Shown here in pieces: positions 9,374 through 17,179 of a DNA stretch of 64,000 nt. Origin of the DNA: Thermodesulfobium sp. 4217-1 (GTDB taxonomy: Bacteria > Thermodesulfobiota > Thermodesulfobiia > Thermodesulfobiales > Thermodesulfobiaceae); assembly GCF_039822205.1 (NCBI RefSeq), contig NZ_JBAGBW010000005.1:25689-89688 (forward strand), given 5' to 3'. Each line of letters starts with the position of its first letter. Position 1 is the first letter of the stretch. A program made the position numbers and the translations under genes. The notes under the pieces were generated by a model that did no database searches, had not been told where the DNA came from, and was given only the letters and a program-made list of their open reading frames with translations.

Positions 9374-9425
9374 CAACGTGTAACCTGTTCGTTTAAATCC
9401 AAAAAACAGCTAAGGTTACACGTTG
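9374..9425. repeat. Inverted repeat between convergent genes, possible terminator
   Basis: A perfect 13-bp inverted repeat (9374-9386 with 9413-9425) encloses a 26-base loop between the trpB2 stop and the end of the MBL-fold gene, whose stop codon lies inside the right arm. No T-tract follows in either direction, so its role as a terminator is uncertain. Confidence 0.5.
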
Positions 9426-10189
9426 AGCTTTATACCAACTATTTCCCTCGGCTTGGCAATTTTTATCTTAAATGGCAATTTCGACTTTCCCAAAATTTCT
9501 TTATATGTTTTTTTTAATAAATCAATACAATTATTCTTTTCACTCAGGTGAGCAAGAATTATATCCCTCTTCCTGATTTTAGAGTTTAGAAGTGCAAACG
9601 CTGCATCTTTATTTGAAAGGTGACCATTCGCAGAAAGGATTCTTTTTTTAAGATAATACGGATAGGAACCATTTTTAAGCATTTCAACATCGTGATTTGA
9701 CTCCAGCACCAGTAGATCAGAGTTATCAATTACATATCTCACATCAGACGTAACTTCTCCCAGATCGGTAACATAAGAAAAACAAAAATCCCTGTATGAA
9801 AACCTATACCCTACTGGGTCTATTGCATCATGAGGGGTTGAAAAAAAAGAAACGCAAACATCTTTAAACTTTATATCATCAGTCAATATTTGAAAACAAT
9901 CTTGTCTTAAAACTTTTTTCGAAACAACATCAAAGCATTTCTCTTTGATGAAAATAGGAATATTATGATTTCTCGTAAAGACGTCTAAGCCCTTAACGTG
10001 GTCAATGTGCTCATGAGTAATAAAAACCGCATCTATATCTCCAATATCCATCATTAAGGAGCTCAAAGAGTTTTTAAGATACAGACAACTAACCCCTATA
10101 TCTATCAAGAAATTATACCCACCAATTCTTAATAAAGTAGAATTGCCAGAACTCGAGCTTGCAAGTATGTTTAAATCAACATTTTTCAA
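9416..10189 (-). CDS. MBL-fold hydrolase (WalJ/YycJ-like)
   Basis: A 257-residue metallo-beta-lactamase-fold enzyme with the metal motif THEHIDH (His59, His61, Asp63, His64), further ligands at STPHDAID and LESNHD, and HLSEKN near the C terminus. The SSSSGN start and overall plan match the WalJ/YycJ group, exonuclease-like enzymes linked to DNA replication and repair. It overlaps the upstream RNase HIII gene by 14 bases, so the two are translated from one mRNA; a nuclease role beside an RNase H and, further upstream, a DNA polymerase is sensible. The exact substrate is inferred. Confidence 0.8.
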   Translation of the reverse strand: MKNVDLNILASSSSGNSTLLRIGGYNFLIDIGVSCLYLKNSLSSLMMDIGDIDAVFITHEHIDHVKGLDVFTRNHNIPIFIKEKCFDVVSKKVLRQDCFQILTDDIKFKDVCVSFFSTPHDAIDPVGYRFSYRDFCFSYVTDLGEVTSDVRYVIDNSDLLVLESNHDVEMLKNGSYPYYLKKRILSANGHLSNKDAAFALLNSKIRKRDIILAHLSEKNNCIDLLKKTYKEILGKSKLPFKIKIAKPREIVGIKLNV

Positions 10190-11108
10190 ATTTTATATCC
10201 TTTGTGATTTTAAAATGTATTTTCGCAACCCTTTTTAATCCCTCAAAACCATTCGCGTCAACAATTTGTTGCGCAAGAGGGGCGACATTTACGCTCCCCC
10301 TTTTTAGCACAAATCCAATTTCTTTAGAAAGCCTTTTCAACTCTCTCAAGAATTTTGCACGCGCTAAAATTGAAGCCGCAGCCACATATAAAAATTTGCT
10401 TTCTGATCTCTCTACTTCAAGAAATTTTACGTTTTTAAAACTTGCAAACATATTATCCATACCACTGTTAATAGAAAATTTATCAACAACAATCTTGAAC
10501 TTATCGCTGGCATTTAAGAAAGACCTGTCTACTTCACAATGAGCTTTAGCAAGAATATCGTTTAAATTAGTATTTTGTAATAAACAGTCTGTATAAATCT
10601 TGTTATACCTCTCAGGCAGTAAAGTTATCCTTTTATAAGGAATTTTTGAATTAATTATTTCTGATTCAAGATAAAAAATCTTATCTTCTTTCAGCAACTT
10701 GCTATCTTTAATGCCTAAATTCTCTAAATAGCATAAATTTTCATTAGATACCATTACGCCCGCAACCACCAGCGGCCCAAAATAGTCTCCTTTTCCACTT
10801 TCATCAGAACCAATATAAAAATCAAATTTGTCATCAAAATTTTGCAATAGAGAAGGCTTAGCATTTAATCTTTTGTTCTCTACCTCTAAGCAGGCTTTAA
10901 CTTTATTTATTAAATTAGAACCTTTTATTAAAGAGGTATCAATTTTTATACCTGTTTTTTTATTCTCAAAAATCCTTATGATTCCTTCTTCTTCTCCAAA
11001 AATAGCCTTGAATTGTAATCCATATTGAATCTTCTTAACATCATTCAACGAAAAACCACAGGCTATCAGCCTGCGTTTGACCTTATCAAACTCCTCATCT
11101 AACATCAA
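10176..11108 (-). CDS. rnhC: Ribonuclease HIII
   Basis: A 310-residue enzyme that cuts RNA in RNA-DNA hybrids. The N-terminal ~90 residues form the TBP-like substrate-binding region of RNase HIII, followed by the catalytic domain with GSDESGKGDYFGP (acidic Asp102, Glu103), IKDSKLL, and VVDKFS. The length of about 310 and the extra N-domain separate it from RNase HII. It overlaps the V4R gene start region by 4 bases upstream and the WalJ-like gene by 14 bases downstream, so the three are translationally coupled. Confidence 0.9.
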   Translation of the reverse strand: MMLDEEFDKVKRRLIACGFSLNDVKKIQYGLQFKAIFGEEEGIIRIFENKKTGIKIDTSLIKGSNLINKVKACLEVENKRLNAKPSLLQNFDDKFDFYIGSDESGKGDYFGPLVVAGVMVSNENLCYLENLGIKDSKLLKEDKIFYLESEIINSKIPYKRITLLPERYNKIYTDCLLQNTNLNDILAKAHCEVDRSFLNASDKFKIVVDKFSINSGMDNMFASFKNVKFLEVERSESKFLYVAAASILARAKFLRELKRLSKEIGFVLKRGSVNVAPLAQQIVDANGFEGLKRVAKIHFKITKDIKFEKC

Positions 11109-11644
11109 GAAGGCTTTTTCGTCTTTTTGGGCTTTATTTCAAAAATGCACTTAGGAATTTCGCTAGTCCACGATTCAAGTTCTTTTGCCTCAAGAATTCT
11201 TTTGAAGTAAAAGCTAAATATTCCCGATAAAAATCCCTCGCACATACTGCACACATATCGCCCCTCATGCTGGGCACCAGAACAGTCAACATCTTCAGAA
11301 ATGCTAACCTCAAAATATAAAGAATTTAAGTCCATGTTTTCCAACTGTAAAATTCCAATTCTTTGTTCTTTAAATGACGTTTGCAACGAAACTAAAAAAT
11401 TTTTAATATCGTTTTCATATGAAACAAAGTTTTCACAGAATTCATTTCCTGCTAAAAATCCAGCATCATATAAAATTTTCTCTGTTTCAAGCTGGCCAAA
11501 TTTTTCTTTAAGTTTTTCTTGAATAGACAAAAAGAAAAATCTAAACATAAACACGGGCATCAAAAGCCCAAGGTTTGGTCTTCCAGAGTCAAGATTTCCA
11601 ATTTTATCAATTATGCGTTGTTCAACATTTTCATTATCGTTCAT
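11105..11644 (-). CDS. Stand-alone V4R-domain protein
   Basis: A 179-residue protein that is almost entirely a V4R (4-vinyl reductase) domain, a small-ligand sensor fold. Typical features are the RPNLGLLMPVFMFRF start, YDAGFLAGNEF in the middle, and the Cys triad C121...C132-x2-C135 followed by EGFLSGIFSFYF. A later Cys in PKCIFEI could complete a metal site. V4R domains are usually fused to XylR-like regulators or methanogenesis and photosynthesis proteins; here it stands alone in an operon with RNase HIII (4-base overlap). Its ligand and partner are unknown. Confidence 0.75.
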   Translation of the reverse strand: MNDNENVEQRIIDKIGNLDSGRPNLGLLMPVFMFRFFFLSIQEKLKEKFGQLETEKILYDAGFLAGNEFCENFVSYENDIKNFLVSLQTSFKEQRIGILQLENMDLNSLYFEVSISEDVDCSGAQHEGRYVCSMCEGFLSGIFSFYFKRILEAKELESWTSEIPKCIFEIKPKKTKKPS

Positions 11645-11649
11645 CTTAT

Positions 11650-12360
11650 TTATACCTCCAGGCTATATTTTTCTCTAAGCTTCCTTAGTAACTTCGAAAG
11701 ATCTTTCATGCTTATCTTAATATCTCTTTTTATATTTAAGAAATCTGAAAGACTACCTCTATTCATTAAATATACATTATTTATTTCTAAAATACCATTA
11801 ATATCAGAATTGACAAAAACAATTACTGAAAAGACATTGATCTCTTCTTTAAAAGAATTCCTAATTTCATTCTCCAACCAAACTTTATTCTTTAATGCCC
11901 TTGTTAGCAGATCTCTTTTAGGCTTGACACTATCTAACAATATTTCATTGTTTACAATAGAAAAAGAACCCTGAGTGTAGCACACGTTTACAATAAAGAT
12001 ACCGCTACCCTGAACAACAAGTAAGTACAAGATATCTCCATATCTGCCCGGGTAATGAATATAGACCAAAGAATCAGATGCAATTGTCTCCAACTCCTTG
12101 CCAAGCTCTTCAGAAACACTATATGAGCCAATATTAAATCTTTCGTAAATAAAATTTTTACTTCTAATATTAAAAGCCCTTGCTAAAATTAATAATATAA
12201 CCAATAAAGAAAGAGTTAACATAATCAGCTTGAACATTGGACCCTGATTCAGATAATCCGACAATACTATAATCAAAGTAAAAAATACAGAAGTTATAGC
12301 TATCAGAATCGAATTTTTACGTATAACCTTTTTTAGTTCTTGCTGATCTATTTCATTCAT
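11650..12360 (-). CDS. Membrane-anchored protein with degenerate NERD-like domain
   Basis: A 236-residue protein. Two hydrophobic segments near residues 17-35 and 43-61 anchor it, and the rest is cytosolic. The segment from about 85 to 200 follows the layout of NERD nuclease-related domains: a Glu-rich helix ([11 protein letters not shown]), a strand pair ending DILYLLVV, then GIFIVNV and a G-x-F turn, then a helix and [13 protein letters not shown]. The usual catalytic E-x-K is replaced by N-V-C, so nuclease activity is doubtful. It overlaps panD by 4 bases and lies 5 bases before the V4R gene. Confidence 0.5.
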
Positions 12361-12704
12361 ACAACCCTATTCTTGCTATCTACATGAACTATTTTTGTAG
12401 CAAATTTTTCAATCTCTTTTTCTTCAACCCAAGAATATGCAGCAATAATAATCAGATCTCCAGGCTCTGCAAGCCTAGCTGCGGCTCCGTTTAGGCCTAT
12501 CATGCCAGAATTCTTTTCCCCCTCAATCACATAGGTTTCAAATCGCTCGCCATTATTTATATTAAAAATATTTACAGCCTGATTGCGCACAATTTTCGCC
12601 TTATCCATCAAATCCTTGTCTATAGAAATACTTCCTTCGTAGTTAAGGTTTGTATCGGTTACTGTTGCTCTGTGAATCTTTGATTTAAGCATCTTAATAA
12701 ACAT
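12357..12704 (-). CDS. panD: Aspartate 1-decarboxylase
   Basis: A 115-residue pyruvoyl enzyme that makes beta-alanine from aspartate for pantothenate and CoA synthesis. Self-cleavage occurs at Gly24-Ser25 in NYEGSIS, generating the pyruvoyl group on the beta chain; Lys9, His11 and Arg54-region residues are in place. The ATG at 12704 has a GAGGTG site. It is shorter than the E. coli enzyme (126) but normal for the family. It sits between the polymerase gene and the NERD-like gene in a leftward cluster; no other pan genes are present. Confidence 0.92.
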
Positions 12705-12761: not shown

Positions 12762-15068
12762 TTAATCGAAAAGAAGATTGTTTTTGTCATTTTCTAAAAT
12801 TAACTTATTGTGTTTGTAAGAAATCTTCCTCTGGAACACTCCAGAAAAAATCCTAGAGATAGATGGAACTAATAAATTCTTAAGATAATATTCTGTGTCT
12901 AAATCTTCAATTGTCAAAGAAAAATAAGGCAAAGCCCTTGAATTAATCGGACCTTGTCCTTTTGCTATAGCATAGCCAAACACATTGTCAGACTTAAGTT
13001 TAAATCCCATTTGAATATACTTTTTTGCAGCTTCTACATGAGGAGCTTTTATTTCATAAGAACTTATCTTTTTATTAACAGACTTATATATAACAAATGA
13101 CAACAATGGATATTCCTTACTTTTTATTTTATTTACCTCATCTTGCAAGGCATTCATAACAAGGTCAAAATCTTCAAAATTCAAAATAGACTTCAGTACC
13201 CTTTCCTGCACGATCTTAACTATTTCTGGAATATCACCGTGTACGCCCTCAAGTCCAACCAAAACCAGATCATTTTTATCGTTGATTCCAGCATATTTCT
13301 TTTTCGCCTCAGTAAAAAGAATTGATTTAAAAATTTCATCAATTTTGATATCTTCACCTCTATGTTTTAATTCAGTGAGGAGTTTGTCAATATTTTCGCT
13401 ATCCTTTATAAAAAGACTATCTGTATCGCCATATATAACCTCCAAACCAAAACTTGCAGCTAATTCAATCGCATCGGTAAGTGTCTTTCTGCCCCATTCA
13501 GAAGTAGCTTCTGCAACCTCTTTTTTGAACCATCTGGCACTTTGCCATCCAGCATAGCCATAACAAGCATTTGTAATTATTTTCAAAGTTTTCTGTTTAG
13601 CATTTAGAAAAATATATTCCTTTGAAGATTTTTGAAAAACTTCCATATTCTTCTTTATTTTTTCTCTCTCAGAAATCAGATCTTGTAAAATTCTTTTATA
13701 AAAACCATCAGGTTCTTTTCTAAACCTATAGGAATTTTGTGGTGATTCAAAGAATTCTGAATCAAAATCTGTATCTACAAGAGTATCAAACGAAATGTTG
13801 TACTTAATCATAATAGATGGAAGCATGCTCTTGAAGTCAAGAACCACCACATTTTTATAGAGCCCAGGCAGCGTCTTAAGGACCATACCGCCTTCATAAG
13901 AATTGCTAACATGACGTTTTTTAGGCAATATAATCATATTTTGTAAAAAACTTTTTTTCATAAAAAGCTGCTCTACCCTAAATCCGGTAGGAGCAAATAT
14001 TACAATATCAAGAGGCAAAAAAGTAATTTGAGATAATGAAAAATATAACTGGTGAGTCAATTCTCCAAGATCAAAAATTGATTTTGCACAAGCCCTGCAA
14101 TGATTTATCAGTTTTTCATCAAGCGACAATTCAATAGCCTTAACTAATTCAATTTGGCTGAGAACAAGCTCTTCCTGATACAAGATGTTCAAAAATTCTA
14201 AAACTTTTTTTAATTCCTTTTGTTTTAATTCATATAGACTTTCTGCATATAGGAAAAGATCTATTATAACTGCACCATCGAATTGGACTGAGCCAAATAA
14301 ACCTTTAGTGGGCAAACTATCCCCAAACTTAAGACTCATTCCAAAACTTTTCGCTCTATTAAACAAAAAATCAAAATCATCCTGTCCTGTGTTAAAGGTA
14401 TATATTATATTTGGTTTATACTTTTTGATATAAGATAAAAATTTTTCAAAAATACTTCTTTCATCACCATCAAAAACTATTTCTCCCTCGTTACAAAAAA
14501 TAGATATATAAATAACCTTGTTCAATTTAGGATCTGGGTTTAAGACTTTGCTATCAGTCAAAAAGTAAAAAGACATAGATCTATTGATTGGATAGTCATA
14601 ACTATATAAATAGAAATCACCATCTATATAATATCCTGCTTCAAAAGAATTATAAGCCTCCACTTCATTAAAAGCGCAAAAAGTTATATTTTTCTCTATA
14701 ACGTATTGCATTGTAGGCCTTAAATCGTGATGAAAAACAGAAAACTCTTTAAATTTCTTAAAAAATTTAAAACTTTGGACATCTTTGTCCTCATCAAAGG
14801 CATAAAACAACCTATAAAATTTTTTAAGTTGACCTAAATAAAATTTATCTTCTATATTAAATCCGACAATCTCTTCATCTAAAGATAAGTTTATAGCTTT
14901 TTCTATCTCTTCAATATTTCCTTCAGCAAGTATATAAAAGCTTGGTTTAAAAGTTTTATCAAATAATCTTACATTTTTCCCATTATCATCTAAACAATTT
15001 ATAGATATTAGAGATTGATTGTCTTTGTCTAAAACAAGAATTTGGTAAGGACATATTTTAATTCTCAT
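12762..15068 (-). CDS. Family B DNA polymerase, proofreading site degenerate
   Basis: A 768-residue archaeal-like family B polymerase. Polymerase motifs are intact: motif A DFKSMLPS (411-418), motif B with KQKTLKIITNACYGYAG (491-507) and motif C YGDTDS (546-551). The N-terminal exonuclease domain keeps the fold, but Exo I FDIE is replaced around 167-173 by YFLTDS, and Exo III Y-x3-D by H-x3-C (323-327); only Exo II (FDF, 232-234) remains recognisable. It should polymerise without proofreading. It overlaps the alpha/beta hydrolase gene by 4 bases. Not the Pol II of enterobacteria; possibly a repair or translesion enzyme. Confidence 0.85.
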   Translation of the reverse strand: MRIKICPYQILVLDKDNQSLISINCLDDNGKNVRLFDKTFKPSFYILAEGNIEEIEKAINLSLDEEIVGFNIEDKFYLGQLKKFYRLFYAFDEDKDVQSFKFFKKFKEFSVFHHDLRPTMQYVIEKNITFCAFNEVEAYNSFEAGYYIDGDFYLYSYDYPINRSMSFYFLTDSKVLNPDPKLNKVIYISIFCNEGEIVFDGDERSIFEKFLSYIKKYKPNIIYTFNTGQDDFDFLFNRAKSFGMSLKFGDSLPTKGLFGSVQFDGAVIIDLFLYAESLYELKQKELKKVLEFLNILYQEELVLSQIELVKAIELSLDEKLINHCRACAKSIFDLGELTHQLYFSLSQITFLPLDIVIFAPTGFRVEQLFMKKSFLQNMIILPKKRHVSNSYEGGMVLKTLPGLYKNVVVLDFKSMLPSIMIKYNISFDTLVDTDFDSEFFESPQNSYRFRKEPDGFYKRILQDLISEREKIKKNMEVFQKSSKEYIFLNAKQKTLKIITNACYGYAGWQSARWFKKEVAEATSEWGRKTLTDAIELAASFGLEVIYGDTDSLFIKDSENIDKLLTELKHRGEDIKIDEIFKSILFTEAKKKYAGINDKNDLVLVGLEGVHGDIPEIVKIVQERVLKSILNFEDFDLVMNALQDEVNKIKSKEYPLLSFVIYKSVNKKISSYEIKAPHVEAAKKYIQMGFKLKSDNVFGYAIAKGQGPINSRALPYFSLTIEDLDTEYYLKNLLVPSISRIFSGVFQRKISYKHNKLILENDKNNLLFD

Positions 15069-15802
15069 GTTTTTATGTTAAAGAAATTCAATATAAGGCT
15101 TGATGTAAAATTCGGCTTTGAAATAGGAAAACTGTGATCAGAATTGGGGATAATTGCAAGATTAGAATTTTTAATTCCCCTGAACATCGAAATAGTATGT
15201 TCTAACCTTATAAGATCTCTGTCAGCGCTAACTATCAAGGCAGGAGTTATTATCTTCTTAAGCTCTGTATAGTCAATATTTGGACTTGCCAACCACAACA
15301 CAATTATCTTATTTAGAAACTTTTGAAAACTAACATTGTATTTGTTTATCTTTTCATATTCTATTTTTTCTTTCTCAAAAAACTTTTCTACATTATCCGA
15401 TTTTAAAGCCTTAACAAAATATGGCTCAAGACCATCAAAGTGAAACTGACCTCCTAAGAGAGCTATTTTTTTGAAAAGCTTCGGATATTTAATAGATAAA
15501 AGCAAAAGAATTATTGCGCCGTCGCTATAGCCAACTGCACAACAGCCTTCTAATTTAAAAGTTTTTATAAATTCATAAGTATCTTTAGAGAACTGGTCAT
15601 AGGAAAATTGGTCATCTGTATCCTGAGTCCTGCCATGTCCTCTTCTTTCGGGCAAGTATATTTTGTAATCATTTGACAGATTGCTTGCCAACTGATTCAT
15701 GCTGTTAATATTTTCAGTGCCACCGTGTAATATAAGACAGGGATTTCCCTTTCCAGATATCTCATAATAAGTTTCAAGGTTATTTAATTTTACATAAGCC
15801 AT
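15065..15802 (-). CDS. Alpha/beta hydrolase
   Basis: A 245-residue alpha/beta-hydrolase-fold enzyme. The oxyanion loop HGGTEN (about 26-31), nucleophile elbow GYSDG (Ser93), acid in SADRD and catalytic His in SDHSF (about 222) give a complete triad. Such enzymes cleave esters, lactones or C-C bonds; the substrate is unknown. It directly follows the MFS exporter with no gap and overlaps the DNA polymerase start by 4 bases. An AAGGAG site precedes the ATG. Confidence 0.85.
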   Translation of the reverse strand: MAYVKLNNLETYYEISGKGNPCLILHGGTENINSMNQLASNLSNDYKIYLPERRGHGRTQDTDDQFSYDQFSKDTYEFIKTFKLEGCCAVGYSDGAIILLLLSIKYPKLFKKIALLGGQFHFDGLEPYFVKALKSDNVEKFFEKEKIEYEKINKYNVSFQKFLNKIIVLWLASPNIDYTELKKIITPALIVSADRDLIRLEHTISMFRGIKNSNLAIIPNSDHSFPISKPNFTSSLILNFFNIKT

Positions 15803-17179
15803 TCAAATCTCCTTTTTCCTTTTTTCAAAAGCAAGAAAAGAAAAGATTGTTACAATTATGCTCAAAAAAACTCCAAAAGCAGATGCATTGTGAAAGCCTT
15901 TCTCTAAAAGATCCACAGAATAAGACATATCTATTTTCCCATAAAAATTGCTAAAAAGGTATATACCAATTAAAGCTCCAAGATTTTGGACTACTTGAAT
16001 GAAAGAAGAAACAAAACCGCTCTGAGATTTTTTTACGTGACCCAGGATAAGAGAAGGACTTGCCACAAAGAAACCAACCAGACCAACCCCTGCAAAGACG
16101 ATGGCAATTACAAAATAAAGCATAAAGCTAAAGTTCTGTATAAAAAAGAATAGGGCACAAGATATGAATAAATTTAATGAAGAAAAAATGCACATTTTCC
16201 TATATCCAAACTTATCAGACAACAGTCCAATCATTGGCACGGTAAAGATTGTTATTAGGCTTGAAATCCCAATTAAAATTCCTGTTAATTCCTGGCTAAA
16301 ATGCATAGCTCCAATAGCAAAAAACGGTATCACAAAATTAAACCCATCAAACAAGAAAACTATAAAAAAACTCGATATTAGAGCGAAAGATATATTCTTG
16401 TTTTTGAAGATTGAAAAATCAATCGTTGGATTTTTATTATTTTTTTCATAATATATAAACAAAGCAAGAAGCAAAAGCCAAGCAAACCATATAGAAAAAA
16501 GCAAACCTTTTTCGGTAACTGTTCTTTGTAGATTTAGTATAATTATCAGAAGAGATATTACAGTAAAAATCAGAAAGTATCCTATAAGATCAAATTTATT
16601 CTTAAGCTTCGTTTCATCAACTTTTGAAAGCGAAAGTAAAGTAAAGAGAAAAACCAAAAGGCCTATGGGCACGTTAATCAAAAAAATAGAATGCCATCCA
16701 AATTTTTCAATCAAAAAAGATCCAATTGGAGGCCCAAATGCAAATCCAATTCCCCCAAGTCCAGTAACTGCCGCAAAAGATCTTCCGATATACTCTTTAG
16801 GCAAACGTTGCAAGATCAATGCGCCCGTGGTAGCAGAAATCATACTTGACGCCACTCCCTGAAAAAATCTTCCGATCAAGATGACATGAAAAGTGCCAGA
16901 AATTGCGCAAAAAAGAGATGTAAAAGAGAACAATATAGACCCTGATAGAAATACCTTGGATGCACCAATAGAATCAGAAATTTTTCCAAAAATAATAAGC
17001 ATTGAACAAAGCGATAAAAGATAGAATATCGCTAAATTTGATATATTTTCTATGCTAACGCCAAAGAATCTACTTAAATATGGGTATGAGATGTTAACTA
17101 TGCTAACGTCCAAGCTAACCATAAAGCTTGCCACACACATACAACACAACAAAATTACATTTTTTTGCAACTTAAGCAT
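15803..17179 (-). CDS. MFS multidrug-type transporter (DHA family)
   Basis: A 458-residue membrane transporter of the major facilitator superfamily with roughly 12-14 hydrophobic helices. MFS signatures are visible: SLDVSIVNISYPYL in helix 1, GKISDSIGASKVFLSG in the first loop and GLLSDKFGYRKMCIF in the symmetric second-half loop. The LDVSIVNI pattern is typical of DHA2-type drug/proton antiporters. Its stop codon abuts the alpha/beta hydrolase start, so the pair may export or detoxify a common compound. The exported substrate cannot be inferred. Confidence 0.85.
   Translation of the reverse strand: MLKLQKNVILLCCMCVASFMVSLDVSIVNISYPYLSRFFGVSIENISNLAIFYLLSLCSMLIIFGKISDSIGASKVFLSGSILFSFTSLFCAISGTFHVILIGRFFQGVASSMISATTGALILQRLPKEYIGRSFAAVTGLGGIGFAFGPPIGSFLIEKFGWHSIFLINVPIGLLVFLFTLLSLSKVDETKLKNKFDLIGYFLIFTVISLLIIILNLQRTVTEKGLLFSIWFAWLLLLALFIYYEKNNKNPTIDFSIFKNKNISFALISSFFIVFLFDGFNFVIPFFAIGAMHFSQELTGILIGISSLITIFTVPMIGLLSDKFGYRKMCIFSSLNLFISCALFFFIQNFSFMLYFVIAIVFAGVGLVGFFVASPSLILGHVKKSQSGFVSSFIQVVQNLGALIGIYLFSNFYGKIDMSYSVDLLEKGFHNASAFGVFLSIIVTIFSFLAFEKRKKEI

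Follow-up and report, generated by a model that had tools for sequence, protein, structure and literature searches.

A leftward gene cluster with an archaeal-type polymerase

Thermodesulfobium is a heat-loving bacterial genus of the small phylum Thermodesulfobiota. In a 64,000-nucleotide stretch of the Thermodesulfobium sp. 4217-1 genome (hereafter the window), a family B DNA polymerase gene, polB, was found in a cluster of leftward genes separated by short gaps or overlaps (Table 1). Gene order and sizes are kept in all four genomes of the genus set, which comprises the genome under study (G000) and G001 to G003 (G001 and G003 being single contigs of 1,898,865 and 1,774,794 bases) and is alone in representing its family, order, class and phylum in our sample. 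The evidence for this conservation is the agreement of ORF order and ORF length, together with an independent RNase HIII match beside polB in each of the four genomes. An earlier, sequence-only reading had placed the polymerase in a single leftward cluster, together with RNase HIII and a WalJ-like nuclease. The cluster itself, with RNase HIII and a metallo-beta-lactamase-fold protein, was recovered in the four genomes, while the matches listed for the latter protein included no WalJ-specific model. The associated suggestion that these two neighbours might supply separate nuclease functions to the polymerase found no support, RNase HIII acting on RNA/DNA hybrids. As the cluster also contains panD, a transporter and a hydrolase, the adjacency of polB and rnhC is weak functional evidence. 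A separate RNase HII is encoded elsewhere in each of the four genomes. Among the remaining genes, the 236-aa NERD-like protein shows what appear to be membrane helices close to its N-terminus and lies beside polB in 4/4 genomes, and the 179-aa protein is similar to MsvR, an archaeal transcription factor, over the C-terminal part of the latter (49 bits).

Table 1. Genes of the polB cluster, sites within the polB product and the solo 5'-3' exonuclease (window positions, unless a locus is given)
Feature	Position	Strand	Basis
MFS-like transporter, first gene of the leftward cluster	15803..17179	(-)	sequence by eye; position kept 4/4
Alpha/beta hydrolase; 3' end overlaps polB start by 4 bases	15065..15802	(-)	ORF and Pfam
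polB, archaeal PolB3-type family B DNA polymerase, 768 aa	12762..15068	(-)	ORF bounds exact
Exo I catalytic positions Y168-F169-L170, D-I-E replaced (dead)	14559..14567	(-)	alignments; identical 4/4
Exo II N226-x4-D231, kept	14376..14393	(-)	alignments
Exo III H323-x3-C327, Y-x3-D replaced (dead; Cys/Ser varies by species)	14088..14102	(-)	alignments
Motif A D411-F-K-S-M-L416-P-S, catalytic Asp kept	13815..13838	(-)	alignments
Steric-gate position Leu416, Tyr replaced (KOD Y409 / Vent Y412)	13821..13823	(-)	Leu 4/4
Motif B K496-x3-N500-x2-Y503-G504, kept	13557..13583	(-)	alignments
Motif C YGDTDS, both Asp kept, unlike PolB2/G2	13416..13433	(-)	alignments
C-terminal tail DKxxxLF(D/N), possible degenerate beta-clamp binding peptide	12765..12788	(-)	conservation
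panD, aspartate 1-decarboxylase	12357..12704	(-)	TIGR00223, 148 bits
236-aa membrane protein, weak NERD (nuclease-related) similarity	11650..12360	(-)	Pfam, E 0.09
179-aa V4R / MsvR-like protein	11105..11644	(-)	profile matches
RNase HIII (rnhC)-like protein	10176..11108	(-)	TIGR00716, 142.5 bits, slightly under cut-off 161
Metallo-beta-lactamase-fold hydrolase	9416..10189	(-)	Pfam Lactamase_B_2, 2.6e-16
Solo 5'-3' exonuclease (FEN), 296 aa	L039:1135-2025	(-)	PolA model positions 2-283 of 890 only (N-terminal third)

The sequence-only reading had regarded the enzyme as an archaeal-like B polymerase in a bacterium, and this description holds. Pfam searches with the polB product returned a complete DNA_pol_B domain (1e-53) and DNA_pol_B_exo1 (1.7e-11), and its best solved relative is Pyrobaculum calidifontis PolB3 (PDB 5mdn, 377 bits), to which BLASTP aligned it with 32% identity across 752 columns; Thermococcales enzymes come next at about 260 bits. 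The maximum-likelihood tree, built from the genus proteins, bacterial G1-, G2- and G3-type polymerases and archaeal plasmid and viral polymerases, joined the four genus proteins to P. calidifontis PolB3 at 100/99 support, with KOD PolB3 placed elsewhere on a weak branch (68/26). By branching, the enzyme groups with PolB3, as represented here by two archaeal sequences, and not with PolII (G1), PolB2 (G2) or G3. Family B membership is further indicated by motifs A (Dx2SLYPS, with an altered gate residue), B (Kx3Nx2YG) and C (DTD). An intact DIE / N-x-D / Y-x3-D exonuclease site, usual in PolB3 enzymes although not strictly defining them, is not present, and the enzyme is therefore named PolB3-derived rather than a typical PolB3. 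Its AlphaFold2 model (mean pLDDT 73.6, mostly >90 in the palm and fingers and low in the exonuclease domain) resembles archaeal B polymerases along its length, with VIA Z up to 32.5.

The best match to polB outside the genus among 386 bacterial genomes reached just 107 bits, GTDB contigs yielded matches from the genus only, no close relative was detected in the phages, plasmids and viral contigs searched, and a PHROGs search added nothing further. A PADLOC match annotated as 'homing endonuclease' covers the polymerase domain and was set aside as presumably an intein-bearing polymerase model.

The exonuclease site and the steric gate

The sequence-only reading had proposed that the proofreading site is erased, Exo II being the sole surviving exonuclease motif, and both points were borne out in the four genomes. 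Across Exo I, the alignment with P. calidifontis PolB3 (RVLAFDIEVYNERGSPDP vs RSMSFYFLTDSKVLNPDP) is ungapped with posterior marks of 9/*, and the replacement of the catalytic Asp by Tyr168 and of the Glu by Leu170 was reproduced by BLASTP and local-pair MAFFT; the segment concerned (FYFLTDSKVLNPDP) is identical in 4/4 genomes. For Exo III, comparison with KOD (YSMEDAKVTYELG vs HCRACAKSIFDLG) replaces Y311 by H323 and D315 by C327, in a register anchored by the subsequent AK....LG common to KOD; C327 is a Ser in two genus genomes. Both motifs are erased throughout the genus and, of the four carboxylates expected in a proofreading family B enzyme, Exo II Asp231 alone remains, accompanied by Asn226.

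It appears very improbable that this loss is an alignment artefact and that the exonuclease uses displaced carboxylates. This explanation could draw on the low model confidence in the exonuclease domain and on some alignments with distant viral polymerases, which moved Exo I or Exo III onto D158, D179 or D333. Yet these slid placements are still devoid of a D-x-E pair, D333 aligns with KOD Glu321 within AK....LG, and the match to P. calidifontis is ungapped and of high posterior. In a register-free scan, residues 150-193 contained no acidic-x-acidic pair and residues 300-345 no Tyr-x3-Asp, so that no placement restores the site.

Polymerase motifs A, B and C were also said to be intact, a claim that stands for motifs B and C and for the catalytic Asp of motif A, but not for the steric gate, where Tyr has given way to Leu416. 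At this column, the 107 other family B polymerases aligned (bacterial, viral and archaeal) display Tyr in 106 cases and Phe in one, and Leu is confined, within this alignment, to the 4/4 genus genomes. Its viral members were found with patterns, and since the pattern covering the gate admitted Tyr or Leu, the viral set was not selected against Leu. The family B gate has been described as Tyr or Phe (PMC4176160), and our search of the open-access literature found no report of a natural aliphatic gate in this family.

An aliphatic residue at this position is the feature expected of a ribonucleotide-permissive, DinB2-like mechanism. In Mycobacterium smegmatis, the natural Leu gate of DinB2, a Y-family enzyme, permits rNTP incorporation, and DinB1 acquires rNTP insertion with the F23L change (PMC4176160). 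In Thermococcus kodakarensis, where PolB acts on the lagging strand, cells lacking RNase HII and carrying an exo-minus Y409L or Y409V PolB accumulated genomic rNMPs, most with Y409V, and placing exo-minus gate mutants at the native locus was not tolerated (PMC13136892). Because the genus enzyme naturally carries both the exonuclease loss and the gate change, it is predicted to discriminate only weakly against ribonucleotides; as Leu is bulkier than Val, Ala or Gly, the gate may be just partly open. Two further parallels with engineered XNA polymerases, at the E664 equivalent (Lys in 3/4 genus genomes, Arg in 1/4) and at A485 (Thr), were dropped as diagnostic since other PolBs also have Lys or Thr at the respective position, many of them in the case of Lys, P. 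calidifontis included.

These changes are found in a gene under constraint. Present as one copy in each of the four genomes, with an overall identity of about 70-96%, polB has a dN/dS of about 0.15 (0.015/0.101 in the closest pair), against 0.19 for its exonuclease domain (0.009/0.048, same comparison), and the palm and fingers are the most conserved part of the product. Its sequence changes are fixed under purifying selection, and the exonuclease domain, with its identical Exo I segment in 4/4 genomes, is apparently retained as a scaffold instead of decaying. An inactive or structural remnant might be suspected from the several altered catalytic sites, inactivated family B proteins being known (PMC2527604, PMC2669801), but the polymerase catalytic residues are all kept and, together with the conservation of the palm and fingers and the strong purifying selection, make such a remnant hardly credible. 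At the C-terminus, D761, K762, L766 and F767 are invariant across species in a tail otherwise just 42-46% identical; devoid of the canonical Gln of the beta-clamp motif, this tail could be a degenerate beta-clamp peptide and provides a candidate lead.

A replication inventory without DNA polymerase I

Family A polymerase (PF00476) was absent from 4/4 genus genomes, with 10/10 bacterial controls matching. This domain occurs in 342 of the 386 sampled bacteria, and a published survey reports Pol I in about 96% of bacteria (PMC12926913). Each genus genome encodes a solo 5'-3' exonuclease, so that the loss of the Pol I polymerase is combined with FEN activity available in trans, an arrangement described by the same survey as usual in bacteria without Pol I. 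In the genome under study, the exonuclease gene directly follows genes reading as ruvA and ruvB. The only other polymerases detected in the families searched were one DnaE and one UmuC-type enzyme. No match to the DnaQ-like family PF00929 was found in 4/4 genomes (bacterial controls 10/10), and the expected metal-binding motifs are visible by eye in the DnaE PHP domain, which, given the absent Pol I and the dead PolB exonuclease, would be the only evident proofreader. As a side observation, Pol I is missing in 6 of the 18 other PolB-bearing bacteria of the 386-genome sample (G032, G179 and G314, from one family, and G100, G153 and G322) compared with 34/364 bacteria without PolB (Fisher p 0.0065, kinship ignored).

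The sequence-only reading anticipated an error-prone or repair enzyme. This now appears too narrow, and a general role in gap filling and Okazaki fragment processing, in place of Pol I, fits better with genomes that lack Pol I and already possess a UmuC-type translesion polymerase; moreover, absence of proofreading is common among Pol I enzymes, about half of the bacterial ones having a substituted exonuclease site according to the above survey (PMC12926913). In Bacillus subtilis, the polA phenotype is due to the polymerase part of Pol I and not to its nuclease, and FEN and RNase HIII act together (PMC10191290). Our chief doubt comes from the same species, in which DnaE can carry out strand displacement at Okazaki fragments when Pol I is absent (PMC13082043). 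PolB need not then be the gap filler, and this alternative would leave it as a repair-only enzyme.

One rival reading is a dedicated translesion polymerase comparable to archaeal PolB2, in which the exonuclease loss and the altered gate would serve to extend primers from mismatches or lesions, Okazaki gaps being filled by DnaE. We regard it as unlikely, although it is consistent with the processing of Okazaki fragments by B. subtilis DnaE and with the activity of exo-dead PolB2/G2 enzymes as translesion extenders, as presented in two surveys (PMC7544198, PMC12926913). Against it, the enzyme does not belong to PolB2: motif C (YGDTDS) retains both Asp where G2 has a single one, Exo III is substituted and not missing, and the tree places the enzyme outside the G2 clade, which led us to reject this class. 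In addition, a UmuC-type translesion polymerase is already encoded, and no SOS or mutasome partner genes were recognisable in the polB cluster.

Another explanation is that the enzyme lays down "ribo patches" during repair, preferring or accepting rNTPs under dNTP shortage, in the manner suggested for DinB2. The Leu gate, the presence of RNase HIII in the same cluster and the DinB2 precedent (PMC4176160) speak for such patches. Conversely, Ku was not found in the genus genomes, which argues against end filling in NHEJ and led to the rejection of an NHEJ partnership, and a gap filler embedding many rNMPs genome-wide would be costly. Overall, we consider ribo-patch repair decidedly improbable.

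Proposed role and relation to known polymerases

In the reading that we favour, with a probability of about one half, a PolB3-derived enzyme took the place of the Pol I polymerase half as a non-proofreading, sugar-permissive gap filler. An archaeal PolB3 would have been transferred into the ancestor of the genus and taken over this half, the FEN half surviving as the separate 5'-3' exonuclease. The transferred enzyme would then have lost Exo I/III proofreading and exchanged its gate Tyr for Leu, both proofreading and strict sugar selection being dispensable, presumably, because short gap-fill tracts tolerate their loss. DNA synthesis would proceed without 3'-5' editing and with weak ribonucleotide discrimination, probably to fill gaps after lagging-strand (Okazaki) primer removal and in repair. 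With both proofreading and the gate Tyr lost, the enzyme may be a natural gap filler that tolerates or inserts RNA letters, either by adding rNMPs or by extending past and copying RNA stretches, and RNA could be removed by the solo FEN, by the RNase HIII of the same cluster and by RNase HII. We infer the activity of the polymerase, its sugar tolerance, its Okazaki and repair role and the link between the transfer and the loss of Pol I from the gene content and residues described above. A bolder version, which we advance only tentatively, would have this natural exo-dead, open-gate family B enzyme replace Pol I genus-wide and routinely insert or copy ribonucleotides while filling gaps on the lagging strand or in repair, with RNases HIII and HII cleaning up.

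The surveys divide bacterial family B polymerases into G1, G2, G3 and minor groups, G2 being the sole major group described as exo-dead (PMC7544198, PMC12926913), and one of them presents these enzymes as non-essential accessory polymerases (PMC12926913); neither a bacterial PolB3 nor Thermodesulfobium was found in the main text of either survey. The case of this genus suggests that Pol I can be replaced by an enzyme of family B, and that exonuclease death and a Y409L-type gate, the two changes used in laboratories to obtain ribonucleotide-inserting polymerases, have also been combined in nature. Whether cells remain viable with a sugar-permissive gap-filling polymerase, and how RNases H compensate for it, thereby become testable, and RNA or modified-nucleotide synthesis may gain a new scaffold in this enzyme.

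Compared with known systems, the closest counterpart is P. calidifontis PolB3 (5mdn), which shares the domain layout, motifs A-C, 32% identity and the tree grouping (100/99) with the genus enzyme; the latter differs by its erased Exo I and Exo III, its Leu gate and its bacterial host. PolB2 and bacterial G2 enzymes are likewise archaeal-derived family B polymerases of bacteria with a dead exonuclease, but have one Asp in motif C, no Exo III and a separate position in the tree. Bacterial DNA polymerase I has the role proposed here, the FEN activity being supplied in the genus by the solo exonuclease, but it belongs to family A and is absent from these genomes. M. smegmatis DinB2 also has a natural Leu in place of an aromatic gate and no proofreading; it is, however, a Y-family polymerase, not homologous as a family, and rNTP use was measured in DinB2 whereas it is predicted in the genus enzyme. 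Finally, the engineered KOD exo-/Y409L and Tgo TGK (exo-, Y409G, E664K) combine exonuclease death with a gate change on the same scaffold and, unlike these laboratory-made Thermococcales polymerases, the Thermodesulfobium enzyme acquired its changes naturally.
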